A stretch of DNA of 39,476 bases from a virus. The first letter of the stretch is position 1. Each line of letters opens with the position of its first letter. The position numbers were made by a program, and so were the translations under genes. The stretch is taken from the IMG/VR virus record IMGVR_UViG_3300010155_002773, positions 1-39,476 of that record; one strand, written 5' to 3'. Under the pieces are notes generated by a model, which saw nothing but the letters and a program-made list of their open reading frames with translations, did no database searches and was not told the origin of the DNA. Positions 7,843 through 35,424 of this stretch are shown one piece after another.

Positions 7843-8257
7843 CATTGACTGGGCTTACTTTGCGGGGCTTCTTGATGCTGACGGCTGCATCTCCATATCA
7901 CGCTACCGCAGCAGCCAAGGTCGTGTCTACCACATGCTCAGGGTCGTACTTACCAACGGTGACAAACCAACGGTCGACCGCCTCGGCCTCGAGCTCGGAG
8001 GATCGGTCTATATAGGCAACAGGAACAGCCCCGCGCATCATGTCACAGTGTGGAATTGGTCGGTGTCGGGCCGTAAGGCCATTGATGTACTGCGCCAATG
8101 CCTGAAGCACCTACGCATTAAGAAGCTAAGGGCCCAGGTAGCTATTGAATATGGGAAGACGATGACCGGTGGAGTGTTAAGTAAGGCTACTATCAAGCAG
8201 CGCGAGAAGTTGTATAAGAGGATGAAGGTCCTGAACCAGAGGGGGAGGCACCGCTAA
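7835..8257 (+). CDS. Free-standing LAGLIDADG homing endonuclease
   Basis: This 140-residue protein carries one LAGLIDADG motif at the N-terminus (YFAGLLDADG, residues 8-17, with Asp16 as the expected metal ligand), followed by the usual beta-sheet saddle and basic C-terminal helices. A single motif implies action as a homodimer. GTG 7835 is the likely start and overlaps the holin-like stop by 8 nt. Such genes are selfish elements that cleave alleles lacking them. No intron or intein signature was seen around it, so it appears free-standing between the lysis cluster and the RuvC-like gene. Its stop shares one base with the next ATG. Confidence 0.85.
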   Translation: MDDIDWAYFAGLLDADGCISISRYRSSQGRVYHMLRVVLTNGDKPTVDRLGLELGGSVYIGNRNSPAHHVTVWNWSVSGRKAIDVLRQCLKHLRIKKLRAQVAIEYGKTMTGGVLSKATIKQREKLYKRMKVLNQRGRHR

Positions 8258-9844: not shown

Positions 9845-10071
9845 CATTCAGCGCCTTCGTCTGATCGATCAAACATGATGGCGAGCGCTGCCAGAGCTAT
9901 ACGTAGGAGATCATTGCTGGGCAATTTCCCCATCTCCTCTAACAGGAAGAGCTCCTCCTGGGGCTCAGGTTCCGTCCCCATCTCGGGTTGGGGTTTCTCG
10001 GCAAATGTCTCGGAAGGCGCAGTAGCCTGGCCGTCCTCCTCGTCCGCATTGGAAGTAGGCGTCTGATCCAT
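9844..10071 (-). CDS. Hypothetical acidic protein, end of the replication operon
   Basis: This 75-residue protein has an acidic, Pro/Glu-rich N-terminal half (residues 1-45) and a hydrophobic helix LLRIALAALAIMF near 55-68. The ATG at 10071 follows an in-frame stop, so it is the first possible start. GGAGAGGAG lies upstream but at a long spacing. It overlaps the Cas4-like gene by 107 nt in another frame, which is unusually long for this genome. A shorter 45-residue product from ATG 9981 is possible. No family was recognised. Confidence 0.45.
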   Translation of the reverse strand: MDQTPTSNADEEDGQATAPSETFAEKPQPEMGTEPEPQEELFLLEEMGKLPSNDLLRIALAALAIMFDRSDEGAE

Positions 10072-10858
10072 GTCGTGTTAGGAACTCCTCTCCGGGATCG
10101 GAACCATCTTCGGCCATTTCGATGGCCAGCTTGACCCGCGCCAACTCACTCTTCAACGCTTCCGCTGAGATGTGTCGGGGCAGGAGGGGCTTGGTCAGGG
10201 AATCCCGGTTGATCCCTGCCACGATGGCCCCACTGTCGATGACGCCGAGGGCGTCGGTATAAACTGCGATCTGGGCAAGGTAGCCGAAGGCGTCGGGGTC
10301 TTCTCCCCATACGGTTTTGCCGTGCTTGCGGTAGGTGTAGCTACCCATTGTTTTAAAGTCCACCAGCATAACATTTACCTGACGCGGGATGTACTTCGCC
10401 TTGACTGCTGGATCAGTGCAGGTCACGAGCATGTCAACGTGCCCGGCCTGATTGTACTTTGTCGCGTCCTTCGGCCACCACGGCGCAAGGTTTACATGCT
10501 TCTCGACCTCGACGAGGAACCCTTCAGGCATTGCCGAGAGGACAGCGGCGTAGGATAGCTCATGGAGCAGGTGCCCCACCGCGAAGGTGCTCCCGATGTG
10601 ATCGGGCATCCCCCCGGAATCTTCGCCCTGGACAGAGAAGTAGGTCTGCCTCGCGCAGGCCAGGAATGCGGAGGGTCGGATTGTGCTCGCCTCGTTGCGG
10701 CGGGTAAAAACTTCCTTGATGGATTCGTTAGCGAGGTCGGCGCGGGTAGCCACGATGTCCTTGTCGATGTTCTGGACGGACATGCCGTGCATCCACACGG
10801 CGCTCAGGAAGCGTGACCAGTCGGCGTAGGGCTTGTCAGGTACGGGTAATCTACTCAT
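9965..10858 (-). CDS. Cas4/RecB-like Fe-S PD-(D/E)XK exonuclease
   Basis: This 297-residue protein has the nuclease core: GHVDM with Asp142, a VDFKT motif with Asp167 and Lys169, and the motif QIAVY with Gln196 and Tyr200. Four cysteines, Cys68 near the start and Cys271, Cys280 and Cys286 at the end, match the iron-sulfur cluster ligands of the Cas4/AddB family. Phage members act in recombination or in degradation of DNA ends. Here it follows the polymerase and small genes of the replication operon, so a DNA replication/recombination role is likely. No cas genes or arrays are present, so this is not CRISPR adaptation. The start overlaps the upstream stop by 8 nt. Confidence 0.87.
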   Translation of the reverse strand: MSRLPVPDKPYADWSRFLSAVWMHGMSVQNIDKDIVATRADLANESIKEVFTRRNEASTIRPSAFLACARQTYFSVQGEDSGGMPDHIGSTFAVGHLLHELSYAAVLSAMPEGFLVEVEKHVNLAPWWPKDATKYNQAGHVDMLVTCTDPAVKAKYIPRQVNVMLVDFKTMGSYTYRKHGKTVWGEDPDAFGYLAQIAVYTDALGVIDSGAIVAGINRDSLTKPLLPRHISAEALKSELARVKLAIEMAEDGSDPGEEFLTRHGSDAYFQCGRGGRPGYCAFRDICRETPTRDGDGT

Positions 10859-20535: not shown

Positions 20536-21173
20536 TATTTGTTACTCCCTGCAAACATCTTTGGGTAGGCGCTTGCGAATACCCTCTCTATAAGTTCGAG
20601 TGGTTTGTCGCCTTCTCTGATAACCACCGGCATGATGCAGGCAATAAAGCGTGCGTCACCGTCGCGCCGGCTGTTTGCATATTCCCACACAAACATAGGT
20701 CCCCCTCTATTGGCGCCCGGGCTGTAGTCCGATAAAGGCGCCACACGTAAGTCTAGTACGCTTTCATCAGGCAACCAGTTGACCATATCGCGATTGAATG
20801 AGAATATGCCAGGCTTATCGCAATCCTTACCGTCGAATAGGCTCAGCAGCGTATCGGCGCCTTCAGTCAAGACGCCGGTGTTATGGATGTTCAGGTGGTC
20901 GGGATGTCCGGCGTCGGCAAGGATGGAAGCGTAGTCGGGTGTGAACATGTCCGGCTTCGCTACACCGTTCTGATACATCATTGTTACGCCGGCGTCTAGC
21001 AGCGCCTGGACGTCCACCGGTAGTCGGACGTAATCGGTGTGAATGATTACCTTGCCGTCGGTGAAATATGTACCGGCGTCTATCGTCTCTCCCTTTGTGG
21101 GTGTGGCGTCCAGTTTGAACGTACCCCATATTCTACATGGCTTCATACTCGCCTTCTTTGCGCTGTATTTCAT
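20535..21173 (-). CDS. Hypothetical early protein, largest of the small-gene cluster
   Basis: The start is ATG 21173, in an ATGA overlap with the preceding 41-residue gene; the longer frame upstream has no support. This 212-residue alpha/beta protein has no membrane segment and no recognised motif. It contains TDGKVIIHTDYVRLP, DMFTPDYASILADAG and a C-terminal helical end with PLELIERVFASAYP. As the first sizeable gene after the early promoter it is probably made soon after infection. Confidence 0.7.
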   Translation of the reverse strand: MKYSAKKASMKPCRIWGTFKLDATPTKGETIDAGTYFTDGKVIIHTDYVRLPVDVQALLDAGVTMMYQNGVAKPDMFTPDYASILADAGHPDHLNIHNTGVLTEGADTLLSLFDGKDCDKPGIFSFNRDMVNWLPDESVLDLRVAPLSDYSPGANRGGPMFVWEYANSRRDGDARFIACIMPVVIREGDKPLELIERVFASAYPKMFAGSNK

Positions 21174-21295
21174 CGGATTATCCCCGCTACTGTCAGCATC
21201 GCGTAAGCGCACATAACGACGCCGGTTGCGGTTGCAAACAGGAAAAACCCCCAACCATCGTCAATCAGATTCTTTGTCGCGCGGAATAGCTTCAT
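21170..21295 (-). CDS. Small membrane peptide, first gene of the early arm
   Basis: This 41-residue ORF from ATG 21295 has AAGGAG 9 nt upstream. It has a basic N-terminus (MKLFRATKN) and one transmembrane helix (WGFFLFATATGVVMCAYAML and onward). The stop overlaps the next ATG in ATGA. It is the first gene behind the leftward promoter at about 21338, with a leader of roughly 40 nt. An early membrane peptide could affect the host envelope or exclude other phages. This is inference from position only. Confidence 0.6.
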   Translation of the reverse strand: MKLFRATKNLIDDGWGFFLFATATGVVMCAYAMLTVAGIIR

Positions 21296-21337
21296 TTTTT
21301 TGAACTCCTTAATTGAAAAAAATCGAACCGAGCGCCC

Positions 21338-21367
21338 ATTATACAGGAACCAGGCGACAAATGTACA
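21338..21367 (-). promoter_or_regulatory. Early leftward promoter
   Basis: On the - strand, a perfect TATAAT (21343-21338) is preceded by TG (CTGTATAAT), and TTGTAC or TGTACA lies 19 or 18 nt upstream. Transcription would start near 21331, about 36 nt before the first early ATG. The -35 is imperfect. A second TATAAT at 21389-21384 lacks a good -35. Confidence 0.5.
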
Positions 21368-21426
21368 AACAAATACCGTACAAATTATAAGTATATTCTA
21401 CGTCCGTCATGACACACGACGCCGGC

Positions 21427-21444
21427 GCTCGAGATCAGCCCTGC
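21427..21444 (+). repeat. 18-bp direct repeat, copy 1
   Basis: GCTCGAGATCAGCCCTGC occurs here and again at 21483-21500, a 56-bp offset, in the control region upstream of terminase. Candidate roles are binding site, iteron or packaging-recognition sequence. Confidence 0.8.
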
Positions 21445-21482
21445 CGCCTGCTTCGTGATATCAAGTTAACCCAGAGGGAGCC

Positions 21483-21500
21483 GCTCGAGATCAGCCCTGC
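21483..21500 (+). repeat. 18-bp direct repeat, copy 2
   Basis: This is an exact second copy of the repeat at 21427-21444. It is followed directly by the near-palindrome TTGTACAGTACCGTGCAA. Confidence 0.8.
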
Positions 21501-21519
21501 ATTGTACAGTACCGTGCAA

Positions 21520-21537
21520 GGGGGGCCCTCGCCCCCC
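21520..21537. promoter_or_regulatory. G6/C6 hairpin upstream of the terminase promoter
   Basis: GGGGGG-CCCTCG-CCCCCC forms a 6-bp all-GC stem with a 6-nt loop about 50 bp upstream of the late -35. There is no T-run, so it is not a standard terminator. It may insulate the region or act as a structural signal for packaging or replication. Confidence 0.4.
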
Positions 21538-21584
21538 GGCGCTTGGCCCCCGCCCCCTAGCCACCGAAGCCGCCGGTGCCGCCC

Positions 21585-21612
21585 TTGCCCCTCGCGGTAC
21601 AATCTGTATAAT
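21585..21612 (+). promoter_or_regulatory. Late promoter giving a predicted leaderless terminase mRNA
   Basis: TTGCCC (21585-21590), 16-nt spacer, then a perfect TATAAT (21607-21612) preceded by TG. The terminase ATG begins at 21618, only 5 nt after the -10, so the expected transcription start coincides with the start codon. No Shine-Dalgarno sequence precedes the ATG. Confidence 0.6.
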
Positions 21613-21617
21613 CGGGA

Positions 21618-23174
21618 ATGCCCGAACACAGCCCCGAAGCGATCCGCGACGCGATCTTCCGCCTCTGGCGCGACCCCATCACCCTCGGAATCGCCCTGGG
21701 CTACAAGGGAACGCCCGAGGGGCGCAAGCAGTTCGGGCCCCTCCACCGCGCCATGCTCGAGCACACCCACAGCCAGCCCAAAACGAGCACCATTGTCCCT
21801 CGCGGCCACGCCAAGAGCACGGTCATCACGATCATCGACACCTGCGCCCACCTCCTCCACTTCCCCGAGAGCCGCAACCTAATCGCCTGCGCGACCCTTG
21901 ACCTCGCCAAGAAGCTGGTCGGCGAGATCCGCGACCGCCTCAACGGCGAGCTCGAGCTGCTCCCCGGCCTCTTCCTGCCGATCAGCAACGTCTTCCCCTG
22001 GCTCTCCCCCCAGGGCGATTCCCGCAAGGCGGGGCCCTGCGAGCAGTTCAACATCGTCGGGCGGAGCGGCAAGGGCCGCGAGCCCAGCGTCTTCGCCGCC
22101 TCCGTCGAGTCCAACCTCGCCGGCAACCACCCCACCCGCGCCGTCATCGACGACCCCGCCAACGAACAGAACAGCCGGACCTACAGCCGCCGCCAGAAGG
22201 TCATCGACTTCATCGAAACCCTCGAGCCGCTGATGTACGCGCCCGACAGCCCGATCAACCACATCGGGACGCCCTGGGCCTTCGAGGACGTCACCGCCTA
22301 CCTCAACCGCCGCCGCGACTGGGACCAGTTCCGCTTCGGCGTCTGGGACGGCGAGGGCGAGGGCGGACGCTCCGCGCTCTGCCCCTCCTTCCTGACCGCC
22401 GACGAGATCGACGAGAAGGAGGACGCGCTCAGCAAGACCTTCTTCAGCGCCCAGTACCTCTGCGCCCCCGTAGCCTCCGAGGAGGCGATCTTCGACCTCG
22501 CCCTCGTCAACGCCGCCACCGACACGGAGCTAACCCTCGACAACCTCCCCGAAGGCCCCGAGGTCCTGCTCTACGACCCGGTCGCCCGACTCACCGGAAC
22601 TGACGGCGACCTCAACGGCATCGTCGTCGTCAGGGTCCTCCCGGCCTCCGCCCTTGGACTAAAGGGCTTCGCGCCTGACCGCAACGTCTTCATCCCGGTC
22701 AAGGCGAAGGAACTCAACGGCGGGGCGGACGCCGCCGCCTGCTGGATCGAGGAGATCGGAGCCCCCGCCCACCCCCTCCTCAAATCCATCTGGATCGAGA
22801 AGGTCGCAGCCCAATCGCTCTTCGCCCCCTGGCTGGAGGAGCGCGGGCGCATCAACAAGAATATTCGCATCCGGGGCCAAAATATCGGAACTGGATCGCT
22901 CCCCTACCGTTTAATGAGTCTACAGACCGCCATGCGGAAAGGGCTCCTGATCCTCCCCCGAGATTTCCCTGGACGCAAACTCCTCACCCAGCGCCTAACC
23001 GAGTTCCCCCTAAGTAACTCAGACGACTTGATTTCTGCGCTGGCTTTGTTAAGCACTATGACGGAGCGCCGTGGAAGCCTCCCAGGGCTCCCCCCGGTAA
23101 CCTCCGAGACGCCCTACAACGTCGGAATCTGGCAAAGCAACACAACCCAGGGAGGTTACTGGCCCAATGGCTAA
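21618..23174 (+). CDS. terL: Terminase large subunit
   Basis: This 518-residue DNA-packaging motor has an ATPase domain with Walker A-like PRGHAKST (61-68), Walker B RAVIDDP with Asp178/179, and a coupling motif GTPW near 217-220. The RNase H-like nuclease domain has Asp320 in LLYDP, Glu394 in IWIEK and Asp469/470 in NSDDLISAL. It cuts and pumps DNA into the prohead through the portal. It is the first gene of the late arm, apparently leaderless. It has strongly C-ending codons compared with most late genes. The stop overlaps the portal start by 8 nt. No adjacent small subunit is evident. Confidence 0.93.
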   Translation: MPEHSPEAIRDAIFRLWRDPITLGIALGYKGTPEGRKQFGPLHRAMLEHTHSQPKTSTIVPRGHAKSTVITIIDTCAHLLHFPESRNLIACATLDLAKKLVGEIRDRLNGELELLPGLFLPISNVFPWLSPQGDSRKAGPCEQFNIVGRSGKGREPSVFAASVESNLAGNHPTRAVIDDPANEQNSRTYSRRQKVIDFIETLEPLMYAPDSPINHIGTPWAFEDVTAYLNRRRDWDQFRFGVWDGEGEGGRSALCPSFLTADEIDEKEDALSKTFFSAQYLCAPVASEEAIFDLALVNAATDTELTLDNLPEGPEVLLYDPVARLTGTDGDLNGIVVVRVLPASALGLKGFAPDRNVFIPVKAKELNGGADAAACWIEEIGAPAHPLLKSIWIEKVAAQSLFAPWLEERGRINKNIRIRGQNIGTGSLPYRLMSLQTAMRKGLLILPRDFPGRKLLTQRLTEFPLSNSDDLISALALLSTMTERRGSLPGLPPVTSETPYNVGIWQSNTTQGGYWPNG

Positions 23175-25200
23175 CTACGGCAAAAAACGCAAGAGCTACA
23201 TACTGCCCGAGAAGACTGCCGACAAGCTCGCTGATCTGGTAGCCACCGCTCGCGACGCGCTATCCATCCCGCTCGACGGCAACGAGAAGCTCATCGTCGA
23301 CATCTACACCGGACGCGACCCCCTCGGCGGCCTCAGTGGCCTCATCGGGGATCAGGGCGTCGCAGCGCACCTGATGAACGAGCCCCTGAGCATCGGCTCA
23401 TGGCGTCCGCCCGAAACAACGGCCAACCTTTTCCTATCACGGCTCCGCCAGATCGTCGCCGGACTGACGCCAGGCATCCCATCCTTCCGCGTCAAGGCGC
23501 GGGTCCCCGGCTCCGCCCATCTCGCCGACAAGCAGAACCAGCTCCTCCGCATAATGACCGACCACGGCCACCTCCGCGAGGCTATGCGCCGGGTGGCCTT
23601 CATCGGCATGCTCTCCCCATATTTCGGCGTCAAGATTTCTACTAACCCCGACGAAAAGATACCGTACCTTAGGATGAAGTACGAGGCACTCGAGCCCCGC
23701 GACTGTGGCTACGAGCCCTTCCACCGCCGCTTCAACTGGCACAGCTACGACCTCCAGTACGCCGACCTCCCCGATAGCTGGCTACCGGAGCTCTCCGGCA
23801 ACGAGGCCCCCGACCCCTGGTCAATCGTCCGCGTGACCGAGGTCTACCACGAGGGCTTCATGCACGGCTCGCCGAAGGGCACGGCTTGCCCGATGTCAGT
23901 CTTCGTCAGTATCCCCGACATAGAAGGGAAGGCGCTCGGCGGCCTGAACCAACCAATCAAACAAAACGCGGATGGGATTTCCCTCGGCGAGTACGTCGTG
24001 ACCGAGCCGCTCCTGTCTTGCCCCGTCGTGATCGACAGCTTCCTCGATCCCGCTCCAGGCGAGGACGTCCCGGCCAGCGAGGTCCTCTCGTGGATCCCGC
24101 TGATGCGGATGATCGTCCAGACCCTCGTCCAGATCGACCGCGAGATCCGAACCCTGAACAAGACCGTCCTCTACGACAAGAACGCCATTAACGAGGACAG
24201 CCTCCAGGCGGTCAAGAACGTAGCGCCGGGCGGAACCGTGTTCATCGGCGTAGACGTCGACGACGCTGTCCGTGGCGTCAACGCGACCATGCGACCGGTC
24301 GAGCAGAGCTCGGTCCTTAGCGAATACCTCGCAGCGCTCCAGACTTATATGCGTCTCTTCGACGACGTAACAGGCGTCAGCCCCACAGAGCGGGGGATGG
24401 CACCCAACCCGCGCAAGAGCGCGACGGAGGCGGCGGCGATTACCGACGCAAGCAGTCGACGGAACGCTGACCGGCTCGAGGTCATGGCGCTCATGTGGAC
24501 TCGTCTTGGTCAAGCGGCCTTCAAGGTGCAGCGCGAAACATTTGGCCCCACGGTCGATGTCCCTCTCGCCAACGGCGTGATCAGGACTATCCATGTTCCC
24601 GACCCGATGACCGCATGCTTCAGCTTCGACATCGACCCGGTTGAGCTGGGTCACCTCTCCAACCAGGGCGACATCCAGGCACTCATGCAGTGGATCACAG
24701 TTACTACCAATACCCAGCAGACCTTCGCGCAGGGCATACCCCGCATGACCCGCGAGGCGCTGCGCCGCCTGGGCAACGCGATGGGCATCGAAGACGCCGA
24801 TCTCTTCCTCGACGCACCCATCATCGAGCTGGGCCCGGAGGAGCGGTACATCCGCCATCTCCAGACCCAGCAGCCCATCCCGGTCTACGAGGATGACCAG
24901 CACGACATGTACATCGCCTACTACGCCAAGATGCAGGAGGCAGCTCTCCTGCGCGGCGATAGCGAGTACGCCATCATGGAGCTGCGGCAGGTCGTCGACC
25001 TTCACCGCAACTTCGCGGCGCGTAAGCAGGATGTGATCAACCCAGCTCAGATGGGTGATGTCATTCCGGGGATCGGTGCGGGACCAGGCGAAGTAGATAA
25101 CAACATGCAGGCGGCACTCGCTGCTGGTGGCATCCCTGACGCTGTTCCCCAGCAGCAGATGGGCCTCCCGCCTGAAGCAGCGGGCGGAGGCGGATACTAA
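23167..25200 (+). CDS. Portal protein
   Basis: This 677-residue protein follows terminase with an 8-nt overlap. The long helical stem region (DREIRTLNKTVLYDKN near 320-340), the segment FDDVTGVSPTERG near 399-411 followed by SATEAAAITDASSRRNADR, and the Pro/Gly-rich end fit podovirus-type portals, which form the dodecameric vertex for DNA entry. Length is in the range of portals with a C-terminal barrel. A GGAGGT ribosome site lies just before ATG 23167. The stop shares one base with the next ATG. Confidence 0.88.
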   Translation: MANYGKKRKSYILPEKTADKLADLVATARDALSIPLDGNEKLIVDIYTGRDPLGGLSGLIGDQGVAAHLMNEPLSIGSWRPPETTANLFLSRLRQIVAGLTPGIPSFRVKARVPGSAHLADKQNQLLRIMTDHGHLREAMRRVAFIGMLSPYFGVKISTNPDEKIPYLRMKYEALEPRDCGYEPFHRRFNWHSYDLQYADLPDSWLPELSGNEAPDPWSIVRVTEVYHEGFMHGSPKGTACPMSVFVSIPDIEGKALGGLNQPIKQNADGISLGEYVVTEPLLSCPVVIDSFLDPAPGEDVPASEVLSWIPLMRMIVQTLVQIDREIRTLNKTVLYDKNAINEDSLQAVKNVAPGGTVFIGVDVDDAVRGVNATMRPVEQSSVLSEYLAALQTYMRLFDDVTGVSPTERGMAPNPRKSATEAAAITDASSRRNADRLEVMALMWTRLGQAAFKVQRETFGPTVDVPLANGVIRTIHVPDPMTACFSFDIDPVELGHLSNQGDIQALMQWITVTTNTQQTFAQGIPRMTREALRRLGNAMGIEDADLFLDAPIIELGPEERYIRHLQTQQPIPVYEDDQHDMYIAYYAKMQEAALLRGDSEYAIMELRQVVDLHRNFAARKQDVINPAQMGDVIPGIGAGPGEVDNNMQAALAAGGIPDAVPQQQMGLPPEAAGGGGY

Positions 25201-25586
25201 TGCCTGAATACCCCTACCTATGCGGCGGCTGCGGCGAGCCCTGGACTGTAATCAAGAGCTTCGCCGAGAGCTCTGACCACGAGACTTGCCCGGGGTGCGG
25301 CATCGTCGCCACTGAGCAGGACTTCGAGCAGAAGAACATTGGCGGCTACGTCAACTCCGACGAGGACTGGTCCTCCGGTAAGGTAGTCGTCCAATTAGGC
25401 CCAAACCACCCCGACAGGATGGTCACATCGAAACATCAAATGGAAAAAGTTTACCAGAAGCACGATATAAGCATGGATACGGGCCACTTCAAGTCGGAGG
25501 AGGCCCAGATCAAAGCTACTGTACCGATCAATAAGCGCCGAGGGGGCTCCCCAGGCAGCGTTAGCGGCGTCAAAGAAGAATCTTGA
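25200..25586 (+). CDS. FmdB-like zinc-ribbon protein
   Basis: This 128-residue protein begins MPEYPYLCGGCG with CPGCG about 20 residues later, a CxxC-CxxC zinc ribbon of the FmdB type. The remainder is polar, with a KVYQKH helix and a Lys/Arg-rich end. FmdB-like proteins recur in phage structural operons, often near portal or capsid genes, with an unknown role. The capsid-operon promoter lies just at its 3' end. ATG 25200 overlaps the portal stop. Confidence 0.75.
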   Translation: MPEYPYLCGGCGEPWTVIKSFAESSDHETCPGCGIVATEQDFEQKNIGGYVNSDEDWSSGKVVVQLGPNHPDRMVTSKHQMEKVYQKHDISMDTGHFKSEEAQIKATVPINKRRGGSPGSVSGVKEES

Positions 25587-25610
25587 CACGCTGTCAACGT
25601 ATGGTACAAT
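25583..25610 (+). promoter_or_regulatory. Strong capsid-operon promoter with an operator-like inverted repeat
   Basis: TTGACA (25583-25588), 16-nt spacer and TACAAT (25605-25610) make a near-consensus promoter ahead of the scaffold gene. The -35 is half of a perfect inverted repeat TTGACA-CGC-TGTCAA (25583-25597), a possible repressor or activator site. The words GGTACAATCT around the -10 are also present upstream of terminase (21595-21604). Confidence 0.65.
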
Positions 25611-25667
25611 CTCGCTTAATTGGGAACTTTTTCTACGGAACCAATAGGCAAACCATAGGAGAAGCCA

Positions 25668-26381
25668 ATGTCTGAAGAACCTCTCGGAGAAGATACAGCT
25701 AACAGTGCTACACCCAGCGAGGAGTCTGCGCCCGTCCCCGAGGCGGCCCCGGAGATAGACCTTGCAGCGGAGGCCAGTCAAGCTGCTGTTACGGAACAGC
25801 GCTCGGAGGGATCAAAGATCCGTTCGTTGGATGATCTCGACCTCGAAGGCGCAGTGCGTACTCAGATCGAGTCATATGTTAGCAAGGCTGTTAATGATGC
25901 CGTCAGTAAACATGACGAGCGCCACAAGCAGCGGCTTGACGATGAGGGCTTTATGAACAGGTCCCAAATCGAAGAGCTTCTTGTGCAGAAGGATGCCGAG
26001 TATTCTCGGCGCGAGGAGGCAAAGGAAGCCTTCCTGCAAGTCCTGGGCACCGAGGGCATTGCCCCCGGCTCCGAGGACTACGGGAAGATCCAGAGCTTCT
26101 ATCGCACGGCTGTCGAAGACGGTCGCATCACTCCGCACATCTTGCTTTCGGAGGCAGGCATTAAGACACTCGTCGCTATGTCGGGTGTGTCGGGCGCGTC
26201 TAATCGGGATGCGGCTGGGCCACGGAGTGGGCTGACTCGATCAGCTCCATCGCCGGATGGCTCGGTCACCTGGGCGGATGGCACGACACAACTGAACGCG
26301 AAGGGTGGAGGTGAGGCTGCTGAGACTCTTGAGGAGCGTGTGCGACAAGCGGTTGCGAAGTCCATTGACCCACGCAGCTAA
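25668..26381 (+). CDS. Capsid scaffold protein
   Basis: This 237-residue protein directly precedes the major capsid gene. The N-terminal 45 residues are acidic and Pro/Ala/Ser-rich; a long coiled-coil region spans about residues 55-125 (AVRTQIESYVSKAVNDAV; EELLVQKDAEYSRREEAKE); the end is Gly-rich with a helical LEERVRQAVAKS tail. This is the normal layout of podovirus scaffolds, which bind capsid protein by the C-terminus and leave before packaging. AGGAG lies 7 nt before the ATG. No protease motif was seen. Confidence 0.85.
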   Translation: MSEEPLGEDTANSATPSEESAPVPEAAPEIDLAAEASQAAVTEQRSEGSKIRSLDDLDLEGAVRTQIESYVSKAVNDAVSKHDERHKQRLDDEGFMNRSQIEELLVQKDAEYSRREEAKEAFLQVLGTEGIAPGSEDYGKIQSFYRTAVEDGRITPHILLSEAGIKTLVAMSGVSGASNRDAAGPRSGLTRSAPSPDGSVTWADGTTQLNAKGGGEAAETLEERVRQAVAKSIDPRS

Positions 26382-26406
26382 CACAAACTCAAGGAGGAAA
26401 TAGGCA

Positions 26407-27573
26407 ATGGCCATTCCCAGTTATGCTCAATCTCTAGACACGATGGTCACCACGGCCCTCGAGACGATGAGCAAAGATCCCATCAATGCTCTCACCGAAT
26501 CTGGTGAGAAGTTCCTGAAGGCCGCCGCTACCAACGGTCGCGTCTTCGTTGTCAATGACGCCGAGTCTGTTCGGCACCCGATCCTCTATGGACACGGCGA
26601 AGACTCTTCGCTTTATGTGCCTGATACAGTTTCAGGAACCGCAGACGTTAATAACCTCGGTGCAGCGGCATCGGAAATCCTCACGCAGGCTATCTTCTTC
26701 ATGCAGGCTGGTACGCGGAACATCAACTTCCCGCAGTCCCAACCCGCAGGCAACCTTATCGACTACGTTTCGACTGTCGTCAGGGCCAACATGATGAAGA
26801 TTTTCAACGAGGAGGAGATTCTCTTCGCTCAAGGTATTGCTGGCGGCTCTTCTGTTCCGGGCTCCCCTGTGGCAAAAGACCCGATGACTACGGACGCAAG
26901 CTACTCGGCTGGCTATCCGATGTCGCTTCGGGCGATTTTCCAAAGCAGTTCCGCACCCACCTCGATTGAGACTGACGGCAACACGACGAATGAGTCGTTT
27001 GCTAACGTGAAGACGGATGACATCGCTAAATGGCAACCGACGTATCAAGCGACTACGTCGGCTACTCATGCGACGCTGTTTGCCGACCTCCAGTCTGCAA
27101 TCCTCAGTGCGTCGTTCTCTGAAGTTGAGCGCCCGACCCATGTTTACATGGCTCTTGGCTCGTTCGAGAAGATGCTCAGCTTGCTCCGCGCAAGCGCCGC
27201 GCTCCCCGATCCCGTTCAGGTCGACATGGGTAAGGAGGGGACCATCCCCTTCGGCGGTGTCACGCTTGACTGGTCACGTTACATGGATAAGGGATCTGCC
27301 TGGGATGTCTTCCCTGACGAGGACACGACCGCGACTTACCCCATTTTGGGTATCAACTGGAACTCACTCCGCTTGAACACCGTTCGTGCGGGTAGTCCGG
27401 GTAGCGATAACCTCGGCTTCATCCGCCAGCTTGGTGACATGCAGGCTCATCCGCTGAAGACCAACCTCTTCAAGCGCATTGAGTGGAAGCGTCAGTGGTC
27501 GATTGATAACGGTCGCCGCTCGTTCTTTAGCCTTGGTGACGCCACCGCTGCCGGCTACACCAGCATCGCTTAG
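26407..27573 (+). CDS. Major capsid protein
   Basis: This 388-residue protein follows the scaffold with AGGAGG 9 nt before the ATG. It has an N-terminal helical arm (1-45), an extended-loop-like region and many beta strands. It appears to have an HK97-type fold, and the size fits podovirus capsid proteins. Codon use is biased toward the common synonymous codons seen in highly expressed genes. Position after scaffold and before head-tail adaptor is the decisive evidence. No cleavage site is obvious. Confidence 0.88.
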   Translation: MAIPSYAQSLDTMVTTALETMSKDPINALTESGEKFLKAAATNGRVFVVNDAESVRHPILYGHGEDSSLYVPDTVSGTADVNNLGAAASEILTQAIFFMQAGTRNINFPQSQPAGNLIDYVSTVVRANMMKIFNEEEILFAQGIAGGSSVPGSPVAKDPMTTDASYSAGYPMSLRAIFQSSSAPTSIETDGNTTNESFANVKTDDIAKWQPTYQATTSATHATLFADLQSAILSASFSEVERPTHVYMALGSFEKMLSLLRASAALPDPVQVDMGKEGTIPFGGVTLDWSRYMDKGSAWDVFPDEDTTATYPILGINWNSLRLNTVRAGSPGSDNLGFIRQLGDMQAHPLKTNLFKRIEWKRQWSIDNGRRSFFSLGDATAAGYTSIA

Positions 27574-27590
27574 AAAGGGAGCCTCTACCG

Positions 27591-28436
27591 ATGGCCACGA
27601 AGGCAGAACTACGCACTCGGCTCAAGCGTCGTCTTGGCTTCGCTGTGGTTTCATCGGTAGAGGACGAACGTCTGGGAGAGGCCCTGAACTCCGGGATTGC
27701 GAGAGCGATCTCCGACAAGGTTCCTGGCCTCTCCCACGACATTTTTCAGGGCTCAGTCAGCGGCGAGCTCGCCCTGACCACGGCGGTGATCTCTGCGGGC
27801 GGCACGACTGTAACCCTAGATTCCCAGAACCCGATCACCTACCGCGTCTACCCTCACGACATCATCGTCGTCGATGTCAGCGGAACCGAGACGAAGTTCC
27901 TGATTCGCGACACCAAGGATGCCAACGAGGTTGACATAGGCACTCCGTCACCCGCAGCCTACTCGGGCGGCAGCGCCTCCAAGGTTATCCGGCGCAGCAT
28001 CCCGCTGCCCACTACCGGCCAGATCGTCGAGGTCTTCCGGGTAGGCTCCACTGGCCGGACCAGCAAGTTAGTTTACGAGCCGCTCTACGCTCACAGCGAC
28101 CCGTTCGAGACGGGGACGCCGAAGTTCTTCGAGCAGCGCTACTCAGAGACGCATGGCAAATCGTTCATCTCGCTCTGGCCCGCGCCAACCAGCTCAACCG
28201 ATCAATTCACCATCATCCAGACGAGGGCGGTCGAACGCCTCGACAGCGATAGCGACACGCTACTCTTCCCCGAGGAGGCCCTCGACGCCATCCTCGAGAG
28301 AGCTCGCCTGGCCTACTTGTCATGGGCGGGGACTTCGCTACCTGTCAAGGCCAGCTTGGCTATGGAAGCTGTCAAGGACTCAAGCGACTCACTCAAGAAC
28401 ACCTCGAACGCCACACAGATATTCACTAAACAGTAG
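27591..28436 (+). CDS. Head-tail adaptor/connector protein
   Basis: This 281-residue protein has an N-terminal helical bundle (MATKAELRTRLKRRLG; DERLGEALNSGIARAI), a central beta domain, and a C-terminal helical part with LFPEEALDAILERARLAYLS, typical of adaptor proteins (T7 gp11/P22 gp4 type) that dock on the portal. It lies between capsid and tail genes as expected. A GGGAGCC-type ribosome site lies before the ATG. The assignment is by fold impression and synteny, not by a single motif. Confidence 0.7.
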   Translation: MATKAELRTRLKRRLGFAVVSSVEDERLGEALNSGIARAISDKVPGLSHDIFQGSVSGELALTTAVISAGGTTVTLDSQNPITYRVYPHDIIVVDVSGTETKFLIRDTKDANEVDIGTPSPAAYSGGSASKVIRRSIPLPTTGQIVEVFRVGSTGRTSKLVYEPLYAHSDPFETGTPKFFEQRYSETHGKSFISLWPAPTSSTDQFTIIQTRAVERLDSDSDTLLFPEEALDAILERARLAYLSWAGTSLPVKASLAMEAVKDSSDSLKNTSNATQIFTKQ

Positions 28437-28448
28437 GGGTACATACCG

Positions 28449-29222
28449 ATGTCAGATTGCGGATGTCCAGGCGAGGATTATAGCGGCTCTTGTTGTTGCG
28501 CGTCTGTAACGCTTCTGCGTGGAGGTATTCATCCCGACTATATCAAGACCGCCCATGTCGATCTCTATGTCGATACTCCAGGCACTCGGACCTTTCAAGT
28601 CGCAGGGCTGACGGGCGATCCTATCCACATAATCTCAGTAACCGCCAGCCTGATGTGTATCAAGCGCAACACAGCTACGTTGCAGGCTAATATGGACAAG
28701 CAGGTCGAGGAGTTCACCTCGAACTACTTAACCCCGGTTACCCGACAGATCAATCCGGTAGGTTTCTCGCTCTTCACTACGCCCCAGTGGCTCACGACTA
28801 ACGAGCTTCGTGGTGGTTGGAACCCTCACGATGATACGGAAGACGGGCGAAGCTACATCGCTACCGGGGCGCTAACTGCACACCTACCCTCATGGCAGAA
28901 TCCGCCGGATCTCTTCGGCTTCTTCTGCGACGGTGGAGTTTTCGTCGAGATGAATGCGCCCAGCGAGCAATACGGCATCCGCGTCGTACTTAACTACGTC
29001 GACCGCCTCGCCTTCTCGCCGGCCTACGCTGACCCAGTCTCTGTCCTCCAACACTACTGGAAGTGTAGCCACTCGACTAATGGCGAGGAGTTCCTCGAGG
29101 GCTTCTATAGTGGCGTATCCTTCAATCTCGGCTCCTCGGCTTCTTCGGGCTCCACGACCGTAAGCACCGCGACTTCAGGGGATGAGGTCGAGACTAATCC
29201 ATTCTCCACAGAGGGGGGTTGA
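28449..29222 (+). CDS. Hypothetical structural protein with a Cys-rich N-terminus
   Basis: This 257-residue protein has an N-terminus with a Cys cluster (CGCPG and SCCC, residues 4-17) followed by a beta-rich body with many aromatic and Asn residues. A Ser/Thr/Gly-rich C-terminal 35 residues is probably flexible. Its place between adaptor and nozzle-like genes makes it a tail or neck component, possibly a second tube or receptor-contact protein. No family was recognised. The stop overlaps the next start (TGATG). Confidence 0.65.
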   Translation: MSDCGCPGEDYSGSCCCASVTLLRGGIHPDYIKTAHVDLYVDTPGTRTFQVAGLTGDPIHIISVTASLMCIKRNTATLQANMDKQVEEFTSNYLTPVTRQINPVGFSLFTTPQWLTTNELRGGWNPHDDTEDGRSYIATGALTAHLPSWQNPPDLFGFFCDGGVFVEMNAPSEQYGIRVVLNYVDRLAFSPAYADPVSVLQHYWKCSHSTNGEEFLEGFYSGVSFNLGSSASSGSTTVSTATSGDEVETNPFSTEGG

Positions 29223-32200
29223 TGGGACGCATACGAGTAGACAATCTCCCGATGGATCGCCAGACGGCTGGGACCGCCCGGAAGGATCTAAGTGGTGGGA
29301 GCCTCTTCAGTCCCAGTGCGCTCGCCGCCGTATACGAGAAGCGCGATGTCGACCCCGAGGCTCAGATATTCCAGCGCCGCCACGGCTCCACACGCTCATC
29401 CACCACCATCCCCAATATCCTGGGCATCGCCGCCGCGATTGACAAGGGCCGCGTTGTTGTTGACAAACCATTCACCGATACTACCTGGACAGTTTTCGCC
29501 ACGCTAAGGTTACCGCTCACCGGCGAGGATTCCTACGCACCGCTCTTTAACTATGGCGGCGTCCACGCCTACATTTACTACGATTACCCAACTAATGCCG
29601 TCCATCTCAGAGCTTACGAAGCCAGCGCCGCGTCAATAGCGTCGTATTCGCTCGGCGATCTCGACAGTGCGACAGACTATCGCATCATGGTCAGGCTTGT
29701 GGGAGGGGCTGTCTCAATCGTGGGCTGGCCGGTCCCGGCAGTTGGGGTAACACCATCTATTGACGCAGAGGTATCGGGTGAGCCTGCGGAGAGTCTCTTA
29801 AGCCCTCCCGGAAGTATAACTATATTTGGACCGCCACTCGCTGCGTTGATCCCAAGTTATGACGGGGTCGTGATAACCAACCTGATCTTCTACAACAAAT
29901 CCGACTTCAACAAGTCCTCTGAGTACGAGGTTCTCGCCTCTGACCTGACGCCCGCTAAAAGCGGCACCAACGCGGCGAGTACCGCCTACAAGGTGCTCTG
30001 GCATGAGACATTTACAGCGGGGGGTGACTCTTTAACTTTTGAGAACAGTGACGAAGTTACGTTATACGGGTATGTCGTCCCCTCGCTTCCTACAGTCTCT
30101 TCATCCGAGATACACTTCGGGGGCCTCGGCGCTATTGAGATCCCCTTCTATCTCGACTTCGACGAATACTACTGGACCCCAACCAATTCGGCAGCTCGAC
30201 TCGAGTGGATGTTTCAGATTGAGTTGACGCTGCCTAATACGCTCGCGTCTTCCACGATCTTTGAGTTTCAGGACATACTGCGGCTCATACTCCACCCATC
30301 GGGAGGTAATTTTGTTCTTCGGGGCAGTTTCGCAGGCACAGGCGTAGTGACCTCGACTCTGAATCTTGTCGCCGGGACGACTTACCAAATCTTCGTTGGC
30401 CGTAACCTTACCCAGTCACTGATTACAGTCACGCCTGATGGCGGGTCGGCAACCGCAACTACTGCCACAACGATAGACAATCCGGCCATCTTCAACTACG
30501 ACCAGATGCTGGGTTTCGTTATTGGTGACACGGTCGACCGCGAGAACACGCAACCATTTGGTGGGCGAATCAAGCGCTTCGCACTGCACAACGAGTCCGG
30601 CCTGAAGTGGCATCCGCTGAAGGATGCGGTCCTCTACTATGACAGCGCGTCGCTCATCGGCGACCAGGTCATTGACCGAGGCAACCGCGCCCTGAATAGC
30701 TTCGCCACGCTGCGCGTAGACACGGCCCCACCTTACTATAACGAGGGTGGATTTAAGGGTGGGTCTTACGTCGTGGCTACTGGCGGGTACGTTATGACAG
30801 GCAGCAAGCCTGATGTCACCTACACTGGTGAGCTCTCCAAGGCGATCACCAAGGATGCGGTTGTCCAGCGGCGCGGCGACAAGGCATTCATGACGACCAA
30901 CGGCGTGAACTACCTGATCGACGACTACTCGAAATCATTCAGGCCCCTGGGCATTAGTCGACCGACGACCAAGGTGAGCTGCTCTCCGCAGGGGGTAGGC
31001 TCCATCGACGGCTTCGTCCGGTACGCCTACCGCTGGGTGACCAAGGACGGCACGGTCGGTCCGGCCTTTGACCTTGACCCGGTCGATGCTCGTGACGGGG
31101 TGAACGTCTTCCTCGGCGCTGAGAACTTTGGCCTCCCCGGCGAGACTCCCTTCGGAATCAGCTTCGGTGAGATGGAGGGGATGAATGATCCAGATACCGC
31201 TCGCGGCGATGCTAGCGCTGGGACAGTCGAGGCATTCTTTGTCCAAGACAATGACGGCGAAGGCTCACGGCTCCTACGCAAGGAGATCAAAGACCCAGGG
31301 CTGACGTTAGAGATCGCAGCCCGCATCCCCGATCTTGACAATGTCAAGGAGAGCATCTTCAGTCAGGGCGCAGCCGCCCCTGCGGGGACACTGCACTGGG
31401 GAGCTGACCAGTCCCCATTCCAGTTCAGTTGGGCTCACGATGCGGGCCAAGAGTTCTGTGCTCAGGTTGCCTTCCGCTATGACAGCACTGAGGCGTATCA
31501 GACATTGCTCACGCTTGGCCGAACTAATCAGGAGGGAGGGAACGGTAACTGGAGACTACATACATTATGTGTCTCTATCCAACCGCCGCTAGTAGGGGAG
31601 AACTTTCATAGCATTGTGGTTACCCGCGACGCTCCGGCTGGCTCGAATCACCATAATAACGACCTTCACCACCACGCATGGGACTACAACTTCGTCAATG
31701 GCCGAGACTACAGCGTCTTCGTCCAGCGGGGAAGGAACAACGGCGGCCAAGACCTTCTTGTCAGTATCTATGACCAGACAAGCGACAGATGGGATATGTG
31801 GCCAGAGGTCGGCGGCTCGACGTCGTATACCGAGGTAATTAAGGAGGGCTTCTGGCCTACTACCTACGGGGCCAACACGGCAGCGTTAGTCATGTGGGGA
31901 ATATCGAGGCACGAGGGGAGTTCGCTATCAGGCAAAAGCCGTAAGCGGGCTGCTTCAGGTTCTTCGACCTTTAATCTTGGGCGCATTCCCGCCTTTGATG
32001 GTGGCGGACTGCTTTACCACGGCAGGCTATGGCGGAGAGCCTTCCCGCAGCAGGTGCTCAATATTAAAGCACTCGACCGCTACGGCGCAACTAATGGGTC
32101 TGTGTTAGACGATCTTATCGAGGTCGACTGCGCCTTCTGCCCGGACTCGAACGAGACGGCTATTACCGGGGGCTGGGATATTGTTCGAGATATGCGGGTC

Positions 32201-34510
32201 CCGTTCTTCGAGGATGGTGCGGGGGCGGTGAACGCAACGCCGACATTAACAACTAACGTGGATAATACACCTATCCTGACCTACGGCTGGAATATGGCGA
32301 CGGCGTCGGCCTCGAGTTGGACAGTCACCTCATTGGACAATGTCCCGCTCTGGATCAACTGGTCATCGCGAAATGAGGGCTCGCTCTCGATTGGCGTGGG
32401 TAGCAGAACTTCTGTCGAGATAGCTAAGAGGAAGTGGTATCCGGGCGCTAATATCCTGACCTTCGATGCGTTCGCAGGAACGCTTGATCTGAAGCAGTGG
32501 ACATGGATCACGCTCTATCTTCACCATGCAGCTCGACCGCAATCCTCCGCCACTTACTATGACGTCTGGTTAGAGCGGGTCTTCATTGATGGCAATACAG
32601 GCGACTGGGGCCATGTATACGACGCCGATATTGACATCGACGGCATCGCGGCCAACGCCTCGGGGACGTATCAGAACGGACTCTTCATGGTTGGTGGGCT
32701 CCCCGGTATGGACCAGGAGTTTCAGGTCGAGGTAACCGAGGTGCGCCTATGGGATGGTGAGCGTTACACCGCGCAGGGCGGCGGTGACGGGCTTTACACC
32801 TTCGGAACATATCTGTCCAGTCGCGTTCCCCCGAACCTGTGGGATAAACTATGGCACTACCTACGCTTCAATAAGATTGATACCAACGACCCAGCATCCC
32901 AGACCACGATGGATCAGTTTGGCTCGTTCATAGGTCCAGACGGAAGGCAGTTGGGCACCAATGCGGTCAAGATAGTGCACGGCTCAGAGGTCGTGGACTT
33001 AACGAGCGCTTCCGCAACCCAGACATACTTTGTCCCCTTCCCGGAGCCCCCGCTCTCGGCGATTAGAGGGATTCAAATCTTCAGGACGCAGGTCGTACCG
33101 GTCAGCACCGAGTACCCGAACGGCAACCCGAACCCGAATGCGTTATCGGACGCCTGGAGGGCTACCCGCGATGCGCCGCTCTACTTCTTGAGCGAGATCC
33201 CGAGGGGGACGACTCACTACTTGGACACTGCGCCCGATGGTGCGTTGGGCACGGAGCTTGACGCTACCACTGGCCTTATCCCTAGGGACCCGAAGGGTGT
33301 CTTCGAGTGGGAGGGCTACCTCGGGGTGTACGTCGGGGACCGGCCCCGGATTCACTTTGCGGAGTCACCCACGAGCTGGGAGAGCTTCCCGACCGAGATG
33401 ATCTTCGATCTCCCGGTGCGCGAGTACGGCCCGATTGAGGCGGCCATTGAACTGGCCTCACGCGATGCGCGTCAGTCTCGAGTTCTCTGTCTCGGCAAGT
33501 CGTGGGGCGTCTTCCTTGACGGCAGCCCGGCGCAGCCCCAGAGCAACTCGCTTGGTGGTGGGGTGGGTGCCTCCAGTTCGCGCTGCCTCGTGGTCGAGAA
33601 GGGCATTGCCTACGCCTACAACGGAACGCTCTGGGCGATCTCAGGCGACGGGCAGGTCGAGGACATCGGACTCCCGATCCTTGACCTTCTCCCTGATCCC
33701 GATAACGCTCGGCTCTCAATCTCCTCGGCGCTGAGTTCGCTATTCATCATCAACGAGAGCACCGGATTAGTGCTCCGCTTCCACCTCGCCAGGCGGCAGT
33801 GGTTCGTGGAGGATCGCTACGCGCTCTCGGTCACCGACATCGACGGGGTAGACAACTGGGTGCATGTCTCAGGCTACCCATCGGCGGGCGATACAGCGGT
33901 CTATCAGGATGACGTAGCTGCCGATACGCCCGAGGTCGTCGCAGTTTCGAGCTACTCCAACGGCGCGGACACGATAACTGTGGCGTCGAGCACCGGGCTG
34001 ACGATTGGGCAGCGCCTGACGGTAGTGGGCGACCGAGGGACAGGGACAGCGTCCGACCCGAGGGAGCGGGCGACGGTCACCATCAAGTCGATAGCAGGCA
34101 ACGTAATCTCAGTTGAGGAAAACCTTAACCTAAATGCGACCACGACCCTTTTGGATGGCAGTACGCCTACGGTGCTGTACAATGCTTATCCCGGAGTAGG
34201 CTATTGGGGCACGATGATAGACACAGGACAGTTCGTTGTGGAGGGCTCGGTAGTGGGGGCTACGCTGGGGATCTCGGCGGGCTCCGGGTGGTGGGCAGCC
34301 TACGACGCTGCCGACTTTGCCAAGGATCCCTCCGACCGCACAGGTTTCGCGGCGGCGGAATCGAAGCCAACCTCCGTGACCACGGCGGCGCGGTGGGGCC
34401 TGAGCAATCAGCAGCGGCTCGAGCGCCTAATGCTCTGGTCGCCTCGGGGTGAGTTGGCGACGCTGACTGAGATGGTACTTGACGTAATGGAAGATAAGAA
34501 AGGGGACTAA
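29222..34510 (+). CDS. Giant tail protein: nozzle-like C-terminus with LamG-like domains
   Basis: This 1762-residue protein starts at ATG 29222 in a TGATG overlap (a TTG just before is the other option). The N-terminal 25 residues (RIRVDNLPMDRQ) are like tail tubular protein B starts. Segments at about 75-160, 295-460, 670-900 and 1020-1180 look like repeated concanavalin/LamG-type beta sandwiches, which bind glycans or proteins. Residues about 1275-1560 look like a beta-propeller nozzle (IRGIQIFRTQ; FEWEGYLGVYVGDRPRIHF; KSWGVFLDG). T7 gp12 is less than half as long, so it appears to be a nozzle with inserted receptor-binding-type domains. A His/Asn cluster (SNHHNNDLHHH) lies near 810. Confidence 0.75.
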   Translation: MGRIRVDNLPMDRQTAGTARKDLSGGSLFSPSALAAVYEKRDVDPEAQIFQRRHGSTRSSTTIPNILGIAAAIDKGRVVVDKPFTDTTWTVFATLRLPLTGEDSYAPLFNYGGVHAYIYYDYPTNAVHLRAYEASAASIASYSLGDLDSATDYRIMVRLVGGAVSIVGWPVPAVGVTPSIDAEVSGEPAESLLSPPGSITIFGPPLAALIPSYDGVVITNLIFYNKSDFNKSSEYEVLASDLTPAKSGTNAASTAYKVLWHETFTAGGDSLTFENSDEVTLYGYVVPSLPTVSSSEIHFGGLGAIEIPFYLDFDEYYWTPTNSAARLEWMFQIELTLPNTLASSTIFEFQDILRLILHPSGGNFVLRGSFAGTGVVTSTLNLVAGTTYQIFVGRNLTQSLITVTPDGGSATATTATTIDNPAIFNYDQMLGFVIGDTVDRENTQPFGGRIKRFALHNESGLKWHPLKDAVLYYDSASLIGDQVIDRGNRALNSFATLRVDTAPPYYNEGGFKGGSYVVATGGYVMTGSKPDVTYTGELSKAITKDAVVQRRGDKAFMTTNGVNYLIDDYSKSFRPLGISRPTTKVSCSPQGVGSIDGFVRYAYRWVTKDGTVGPAFDLDPVDARDGVNVFLGAENFGLPGETPFGISFGEMEGMNDPDTARGDASAGTVEAFFVQDNDGEGSRLLRKEIKDPGLTLEIAARIPDLDNVKESIFSQGAAAPAGTLHWGADQSPFQFSWAHDAGQEFCAQVAFRYDSTEAYQTLLTLGRTNQEGGNGNWRLHTLCVSIQPPLVGENFHSIVVTRDAPAGSNHHNNDLHHHAWDYNFVNGRDYSVFVQRGRNNGGQDLLVSIYDQTSDRWDMWPEVGGSTSYTEVIKEGFWPTTYGANTAALVMWGISRHEGSSLSGKSRKRAASGSSTFNLGRIPAFDGGGLLYHGRLWRRAFPQQVLNIKALDRYGATNGSVLDDLIEVDCAFCPDSNETAITGGWDIVRDMRVPFFEDGAGAVNATPTLTTNVDNTPILTYGWNMATASASSWTVTSLDNVPLWINWSSRNEGSLSIGVGSRTSVEIAKRKWYPGANILTFDAFAGTLDLKQWTWITLYLHHAARPQSSATYYDVWLERVFIDGNTGDWGHVYDADIDIDGIAANASGTYQNGLFMVGGLPGMDQEFQVEVTEVRLWDGERYTAQGGGDGLYTFGTYLSSRVPPNLWDKLWHYLRFNKIDTNDPASQTTMDQFGSFIGPDGRQLGTNAVKIVHGSEVVDLTSASATQTYFVPFPEPPLSAIRGIQIFRTQVVPVSTEYPNGNPNPNALSDAWRATRDAPLYFLSEIPRGTTHYLDTAPDGALGTELDATTGLIPRDPKGVFEWEGYLGVYVGDRPRIHFAESPTSWESFPTEMIFDLPVREYGPIEAAIELASRDARQSRVLCLGKSWGVFLDGSPAQPQSNSLGGGVGASSSRCLVVEKGIAYAYNGTLWAISGDGQVEDIGLPILDLLPDPDNARLSISSALSSLFIINESTGLVLRFHLARRQWFVEDRYALSVTDIDGVDNWVHVSGYPSAGDTAVYQDDVAADTPEVVAVSSYSNGADTITVASSTGLTIGQRLTVVGDRGTGTASDPRERATVTIKSIAGNVISVEENLNLNATTTLLDGSTPTVLYNAYPGVGYWGTMIDTGQFVVEGSVVGATLGISAGSGWWAAYDAADFAKDPSDRTGFAAAESKPTSVTTAARWGLSNQQRLERLMLWSPRGELATLTEMVLDVMEDKKGD

Positions 34511-34512
34511 CT

Positions 34513-35424
34513 ATGGCTTTACCTTGGGCATCTATTCTTGGAGGGGCATCTCTTGCCACCGGATTAGGTTCACTGCTTTTCCCAAGTTCCGCTGGGGCGG
34601 ATGCTGCGAAGAAGGCAGCCAAAGAAGCGCGTAAGATGCGTGACTGGTACGAGGGCAAAGCTCGCGAGACGAGTCACAAACTCAACGCCGAGCTGGAGTC
34701 GATGCGCACGCTTCGCTCCCTGGACATGCCGGCCTATCAGGCGTCGGCCCAGATAGCGCAGCTTCAGCGCCAGAAGGGGTCGGAGCGGGTCGGTCGCCAG
34801 CGCATGCTTGGCGGGTTGGACCGGAGTACCCGCGATGCAGTCTTTGGGGGGCAGCTCACGCAGTACCTCGGGAGGGAGAACCAGCGGCTCGGACGCTACG
34901 CCGGAATGACCAAGCAGATTTTCGACATGGCTTCTCAGGGGCAGGCGCAGGTCAACCAGATGTTGCAGGCGGGTGGGGCGCAGTACGGCCAGATGATGGG
35001 CCAAGCTAACCAGATGGCCTACAACGCCGAGGTAGCCACAGGAAACAAGTGGGGCAAAGCGTTGGGCGCGTTGTCTCAGGGGCTATCGATGGCCAGCCAG
35101 GGCTTCGCGCAGAAGGAGGCGTTGGCCGAGCAGCGAAAATACCAAGAGGGCCAGGTGGCGGAGCAGCGAGACTTCCTGCGTGAACTCTATGGCACTTCTC
35201 CTGCCGGAGCTGCCGAAGCTGCTGGAGGCGGCGGGGGCGGCTACATGGGACCTGGTTATGTACCTCCCGGAAATCCACAGGCTCCAGGAGGGGGTGGGGG
35301 GTACGGATTCGGGATGAGCGGCAGTACGATTTCGCCCAATATGTATGGGCTTGACCCTATGGTTTTCAGTCAGTTTATGATGGGGGGAAGCCCCACAGCT
35401 TTTGGACCTCAGCAAGGGTACTAA
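34513..35424 (+). CDS. Internal virion protein, gp14-like
   Basis: In this 303-residue protein, a hydrophobic Gly-rich N-terminus (SILGGASLATGLGSLLF) is followed by a long coiled coil at about 30-215, with Gln/Met-rich heptads (QVNQMLQAGGAQYGQMMGQ), and a Gly/Pro-rich C-terminus. This matches T7 gp14-type core proteins that are ejected and enter the outer membrane. It sits between the nozzle-like gene and the large ejection protein, as in T7. It starts 2 nt after the upstream stop. Confidence 0.75.
   Translation: MALPWASILGGASLATGLGSLLFPSSAGADAAKKAAKEARKMRDWYEGKARETSHKLNAELESMRTLRSLDMPAYQASAQIAQLQRQKGSERVGRQRMLGGLDRSTRDAVFGGQLTQYLGRENQRLGRYAGMTKQIFDMASQGQAQVNQMLQAGGAQYGQMMGQANQMAYNAEVATGNKWGKALGALSQGLSMASQGFAQKEALAEQRKYQEGQVAEQRDFLRELYGTSPAGAAEAAGGGGGGYMGPGYVPPGNPQAPGGGGGYGFGMSGSTISPNMYGLDPMVFSQFMMGGSPTAFGPQQGY

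Follow-up and report, generated by a model that had tools for sequence, protein, structure and literature searches.

A probably leaderless, or nearly leaderless, terminase gene at the head of the late operon in an uncultured phage group

Introduction

The cI message of phage lambda, transcribed from PRM, begins with AUG. It has been named as a leaderless mRNA (PMC9031893), and phage transcripts have been characterized in one account as "often leaderless" (PMC5312081), a description that counts against the novelty of a further case. In the cited descriptions from Deinococcus-Thermus and Actinobacteria, leaderless genes carry a TANNNT motif ~12 bp upstream of the start (PMC3160421) or a motif set off from the ORF by 6-7 bp (PMC12340547). 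For the Thermus phage phiYS40, most middle and late messages are described as leaderless, and IF2 goes up while IF3 goes down (PMC3594737), and in Cluster O mycobacteriophages the divergent promoters PL1 and PR2 are predicted to be leaderless (PMC4351075). Within our partial coverage of the literature on leaderless phage messages, no leaderless terminase message was found.

Here, we analyzed a viral stretch of 39,476 bases (hereafter, the window), in which the first gene of the late operon is terL, encoding the terminase large subunit. In the window and in many relatives, this gene is probably leaderless or nearly so. As in the bacterial leaderless genes (PMC3160421, PMC12340547), a TANNNT motif lies ~11-12 bp upstream, no ribosome site is present, and the start codon is predicted to stand at the 5' end of the message. 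In those bacteria, however, leaderless initiation is described as a genome-wide habit, whereas in the window it is clear only for terL, the other late genes having ribosome sites. The likeness to phiYS40 is a late phage mRNA without a leader, but here it concerns the operon's first gene only. In Cluster O, the two divergent promoters, both predicted to be leaderless, are ~5 kb away from the left end and terL is ~14 kb away from it (PMC4351075); in the window, only the rightward promoter is of this kind, and it abuts terL beside a presumed genome end. With lambda cI, the locus shares a phage gene whose mRNA would start at AUG, although cI is the repressor in lysogeny and terL a late packaging gene. 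Less usual here are the confinement of leaderlessness to the first gene and its placement against the presumed genome end.

Results and discussion

The phage and its terminase promoter

The window encodes SU10-like portal and adaptor proteins (the adaptor below the Pfam cut-off) and a terminase, while its left arm encodes a family A DNA polymerase, a UvrD-like helicase and a primase-polymerase-like protein. In an annotated phage collection, four records matched the terminase, covering 45-49% of its length with 23-24.5% identity, and these distant matches place the window in a phage of an uncultured group. The window also contains a LAGLIDADG-like endonuclease gene (7835-8257; Pfam LAGLIDADG_1, E 1e-5) directly before a RuvC-like gene.

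The elements at the head of the late operon are as follows.

21585-21590, plus strand: -35-like hexamer TTGCCC, 4/6 consensus bases
21607-21612, plus strand: -10 hexamer TATAAT, 5 nt (CGGGA) from the terL ATG; its position recurs in relatives
21618-21620, plus strand: ATG start codon of terL, its A being the predicted transcription start
21618-23174, plus strand: terL, terminase large subunit, 518 aa (phrog_38, E 6.5e-43), gene 1 of the late operon

The promoter, TTGCCC-16 nt-TATAAT ending at 21612 before an ATG at 21618, is exactly as originally predicted, and it matches the consensus at 10 of 12 positions. TATAAT begins 11 bp 5' of the ATG, in keeping with the TANNNT of leaderless genes at ~12 bp. 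Considered alone, this match rises only mildly over chance: a promoter scan of 15 kb returned 9 promoter-like sites versus 4.9 +/- 2.3 in shuffles, and TATAAT occurs five times on the plus strand of the window.

The start codon at 21618 is sound. In the terL frame, a stop at -9 is followed by this ATG as the sole possible start, and two relatives with 80% identity (L004 and L005) begin at the same residue. Conservation extends from about residue 4, and the next methionine, residue 46, lies within conserved sequence. With regard to the codon expected of a leaderless gene, terL in the window has AUG, and several relatives have TTG or GTG.

With 5 nt separating the -10 from the ATG, its A is base six counted from the end of the hexamer. 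The commonest -10 spacing would set +1 one base into the terL codon. The 5-nt gap is at the short end of the normal range between -10 and +1; because it is under the usual 6-7 nt, some transcripts may begin inside the AUG.

Ribosome sites at terL and at other genes

As expected of a leaderless gene, terL has no Shine-Dalgarno sequence. For pairing with the 16S 3' end, its duplex energy came to +0.9 kcal/mol, a worse value than at any other of the 26 window starts scored (a ranking in which the row of the small left gene was scored from a misplaced start), and random window positions average -3.1, with 25% reaching -5. All 14 other listed plus-strand genes score -5.2 or better, and the late arm's other eight genes (23167 to 34513) range from -5.2 to -11.8. 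The original observation that terL lacks a ribosome site is confirmed, and the other late genes of the window have such sites. The portal gene, next in the operon, provides the contrast to terL.

23150-23155, plus strand: GGGAGG ribosome site for the portal gene, duplex energy -11.8
23167-25200, plus strand: portal gene (Pfam SU10_portal; phrog_156), overlapping terL by 8 nt
25583-25610, plus strand: internal late promoter TTGACA-16-TACAAT, 57 nt 5' of a gene at 25668 that has a ribosome site

Near the other window starts, a -10-like hexamer was found in 1 of 24 cases (9965-10858, minus strand; a weak GACAAT), and the leaderless expression of most middle and late genes seen in phiYS40 does not extend to the window. 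In the nine relatives' records scored, weak ribosome sites precede many other genes as well, which makes the missing site of terL less distinctive there.

Recurrence of the close -10 hexamer in relatives

Since a promoter match alone means little, relatives were collected: 13 loci and then 62 viral loci and one genome locus, from which 61 terL upstream regions, including the window's, were read. Clustering of 60 of the 61 rows yielded 30 dereplicated upstream regions, L054 being left out with <30 nt upstream. The start table omits L014, L045, L051 and L053, where the terL start or its upstream sequence is absent, and shorter copies (L002, L005-L007, L011, L013) were exchanged for longer loci of the same contigs. 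Two loci found later, L127 and L132, stand outside the 30 clusters.

A hexamer was counted if it had at least 4/6 matches to TATAAT with A2 and T6 fixed and ended 4-10 nt 5' of the start. Such a hexamer is present in 14 of the 30 regions, including the window's and the doubtful AAAAAT of L038, compared with a mean of 2.3 and a maximum of 8 in 2000 shuffles; for gaps of 4-8 nt only, the count is 11/30 (shuffles 1.7, maximum 8). By gap, there are two hexamers at 4 nt, two at 5, five at 6, three at 8 and four at 10, with fewer beyond. Because the starts in this count had been picked by hand with the upstream sequence in view, it was redone under a fixed start rule in nine longer relatives' records, which also served for the energy scoring and some of which had been shortened, by 10 kb at most; one (G010) had no usable terL start. 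Under this rule, a close hexamer was found at 6 of 8 terL starts in relatives versus 2 of 97 starts of other genes (Fisher p = 5e-7, a value that ignores relatedness and is hence too optimistic). The predicted leaderless terminase message is well supported by this comparison: the close -10 recurs above shuffles, yet 16 of the 30 clusters have no hexamer at 4-10 nt.

The pairs of hexamer and start include TATAAT-5-ATG (L049), TACACT-6-ATG (L048), TACAAT-6-ATG (L055), TATACT-6-GTG (L058), TAGGAT-6-ATG (L008), TATACT-6-ATG (L019) and TATAGT-8-GTG (L064). The hexamers and their flanks vary among relatives, suggesting that the spacing is kept rather than the sequence. Other arrangements also occur: in L018, the -10 lies at 21 nt and the leader contains an AGGTG site; in L039, TATAAT is 13 nt from the start; and in L057, TTGACA-17-TACGAT lies ~95 nt 5' of terL.

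A conserved block that may mark the packaging end

Upstream of the terL promoter, two further elements were identified.

21552-21566, no strand assigned: conserved GCCCCCTAGCCACCG block, putative packaging end (cos)
21520-21537, no strand assigned: GGGGGG / CCCCCC inverted repeat, immediately left of the block

The block is a C-run ending CTAGCCACCG and was seen in 22 of 30 cluster representatives, counted by eye. This count includes L038, which has a variant ending, and L019, which has one extra C, and excludes chance matches to the loose pattern in L064 and L047; the contigs of L020 and L047 begin too near terL for the block to be judged. It is also present in L127 and in L071, a member of one of the clusters. 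In relatives, G/C-rich hairpins likewise lie 5' of the block, and the distance from the block to the first codon is 20 to ~110 nt in 20 of the 22 cases, 137 nt in L057 and 199 nt in L052. Six more distant relatives (L063, L065 and L067-L070) have neither the block nor a close hexamer at terL. The exact 15-mer GCCCCCTAGCCACCG occurs in 27 viral stretches, 22 of the phage group and five unrelated (L112, L118, L119, L122 and L129), and CCTAGCCACCGCGTC gives 26 matches, within the phage group only in L133, L149, L008, L009 and L131. Because they match unrelated stretches, these short forms evidently occur by chance too.

A conserved site beside the terminase gene is what would be expected of cos, and 4 of 60 contigs start in or beside the block (L016, L017, L019 and L052), suggesting that the block may be a packaging end. 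L016 and L017, from different data sets, both begin exactly at CCTAGCCACCG and are identical from there to terL. L019 (G002, 41,525 bases), whose gene order is that of the window rotated, starts with CCCCCTAGCCCACCG, from which terL is read outward, and ends with GGCACCTCCC, which brings the two contig ends together within the C-run. The start of L052, at CCCCCGCCCCCCGGCCACCG, is a few bases to the left of this. Measured leftward from the right edge of the block, the four starts fall at 11 to 20 nt, at more than one base, and many contigs, the window's included, run through the block; the contig starts may instead reflect assemblies that broke at the hairpin. As single-stranded DNA, 21480-21617 folds only weakly better than shuffles (z -1.72). 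If the block is the packaging end, terL would lie ~62-65 bp and the -35 ~30 bp from the left genome end.

In L127, which has 65% identity, a 94-codon ORF (491-775) lies between the block and terL and overlaps the terL GTG. Its ATG (491) stands 6 nt after TACGGT, which fits TANNNT but has 3/6 consensus matches, under the threshold of at least 4/6, and the arrangement is consequently only suggestive. This ORF could encode a small terminase subunit.

A model for initiation at terL

The observed sequence layout, the missing ribosome site and the recurrence in relatives form the basis of the following model. TTGCCC/TATAAT would act as a host sigma-70-type promoter for the late plus-strand operon, with +1 at the A of the terL AUG or no more than two bases off. 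With an mRNA that begins at AUG, terL would be initiated leaderlessly, the ribosome binding the 5'-terminal AUG, whereas initiation at the portal gene and the genes downstream would use their own ribosome sites. The likely effect would be a modest output of terminase relative to the capsid proteins made from the same mRNA. Given the probable left end, only ~30 bp of the packaged genome would precede the promoter, and the promoter and the first codon would be packed together beside the packaging site. We regard this explanation as a whole, in which a sigma-70-type promoter starts the terL mRNA at or near its AUG for leaderless initiation, as likely.

An unlikely variant is a very short leader of ~3-9 nt, in which +1 falls a little further 5', as it would if the TACAAT ending at 21603 were used, and the ribosome loads without Shine-Dalgarno pairing. 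A promoter-like GTGCCG-16-TACAAT (8/12) does end at 21603, and relatives with a hexamer at 8-13 nt would have leaders of a few nucleotides. The same would hold for a mostly-TTG group of relatives, in which the hexamer is ~10 nt away (10 nt in L029 and L033, both with a TTG start) or under the threshold; UUG is described as a poor leaderless start in E. coli (PMC9031893). However, in the window it is TATAAT, the full consensus, that stands 5 nt from the ATG, and gaps of 5-6 nt recur in relatives of different sequence, both of which favor a start at or near the AUG.

A distant promoter is less probable still. Under this reading, transcription would start at a site such as TTGAAA-18-CATTAT (21313-21342), a 9/12 match with the block between it and terL, and the ~270-nt leader, including the G/C hairpin and the block, would be a regulatory RNA; in L057, a promoter lies ~95 nt upstream. 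Nevertheless, terL would remain without a ribosome site, Rfam returned nothing for 21250-21750 up to E 1, the -10 adjacent to the start recurs in relatives, and contigs that terminate at the block suggest a DNA end there. Folding of the first 80 nt of the terL mRNA predicted from the close promoter is no better than in shuffles (z 0.2).

That the hexamer is an AT-rich coincidence, with terL read from the upstream open frame (ORF 21409-21882) or otherwise, is highly improbable: promoter scans alone are little over chance, but the recurrence in relatives exceeds both shuffles and other genes, and the part of this ORF 5' of terL, searched alone against 58 other loci, gave no relative with an E better than 0.07. 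On the grounds of that search, ORF 21409-21882, whose frame differs from that of terL and which runs across the terL start, was rejected as a gene. Among the matches listed for the whole ORF, most fall on terL coding sequence read out of frame, and a few (for example, L018, L071, L025, L027 and L037) reach back over the block.

Returning to leaderless initiation at terL, we also considered a more speculative extension, to which we give little credence, in which a single compact switch would comprise the late promoter, the leaderless first codon and the packaging end. By binding the end sequence, which is ~20 bp away from the -35, terminase would block its own promoter, leaderless initiation would tie terminase synthesis to the late ribosome state, and the onset of packaging would regulate its own motor.

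The locus provides a sequence-based, testable case of probable leaderless initiation that is retained at the first gene of a late phage operon and is not shared by the other genes of these phages. It raises the question of how a leaderless start would benefit the packaging motor but not the capsid genes. The block, in turn, offers a possible physical genome end for an uncultured phage group, which helps to orient metagenomic genomes.

Host of the phage group

The suggestion that the host translates leaderless mRNAs well was not upheld, given that the other late genes have ribosome sites and that a single start among the 24 others has a close hexamer. The one lead to a host, a weak one, is the relative L071 (9850-10924), which lies in a MAG labelled Gemmatimonadota. 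It carries terL residues 4-297, beyond which stands a run of N, together with the block and a promoter-like stretch. This MAG was rejected as proof of the host, because terL residues 4-297 alone match and the match stops at the run of N. In the 100 kb around the terL piece, none of the other window proteins (27 searched) matched, and 395 genomes drawn from Gemmatimonadota gave no match besides this MAG. The literature covered contained nothing on leaderless genes in Gemmatimonas. In 400 kb of the MAG, 133 in-frame ATG candidates of first genes display a clear ribosome-site peak, and five have a hexamer at gaps of 5-7 (~3 expected from other positions); the MAG may have a small share of leaderless genes.

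The divergent left arm

The left arm is transcribed in the opposite direction from its own promoter.

21338-21367, minus strand: divergent left-arm promoter TGTACA-18-TATAAT, with CTGTATAAT in common with the terL promoter
21170-21295, minus strand: small ORF of 41 aa that opens the left arm; AAGGAG site, leader of ~35 nt

The presence of both a ~35-nt leader and an AAGGAG site on this side indicates that leaderlessness in the window is specific to the rightward operon. Between the divergent promoters, GTACA occurs at 21363, 21378, 21504 and 21597, with 24 occurrences on the same strand window-wide. The GTACA-like elements TACCGTACAA, TACCGTGCAA, TTGTACAGTA and CGGTACAAT flank both promoters (21361-21603), and a perfect 19-nt direct repeat, CGCTCGAGATCAGCCCTGC, is found at 21426 and 21482. 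Together, the GTACA-like elements and the direct repeat are possible operators.
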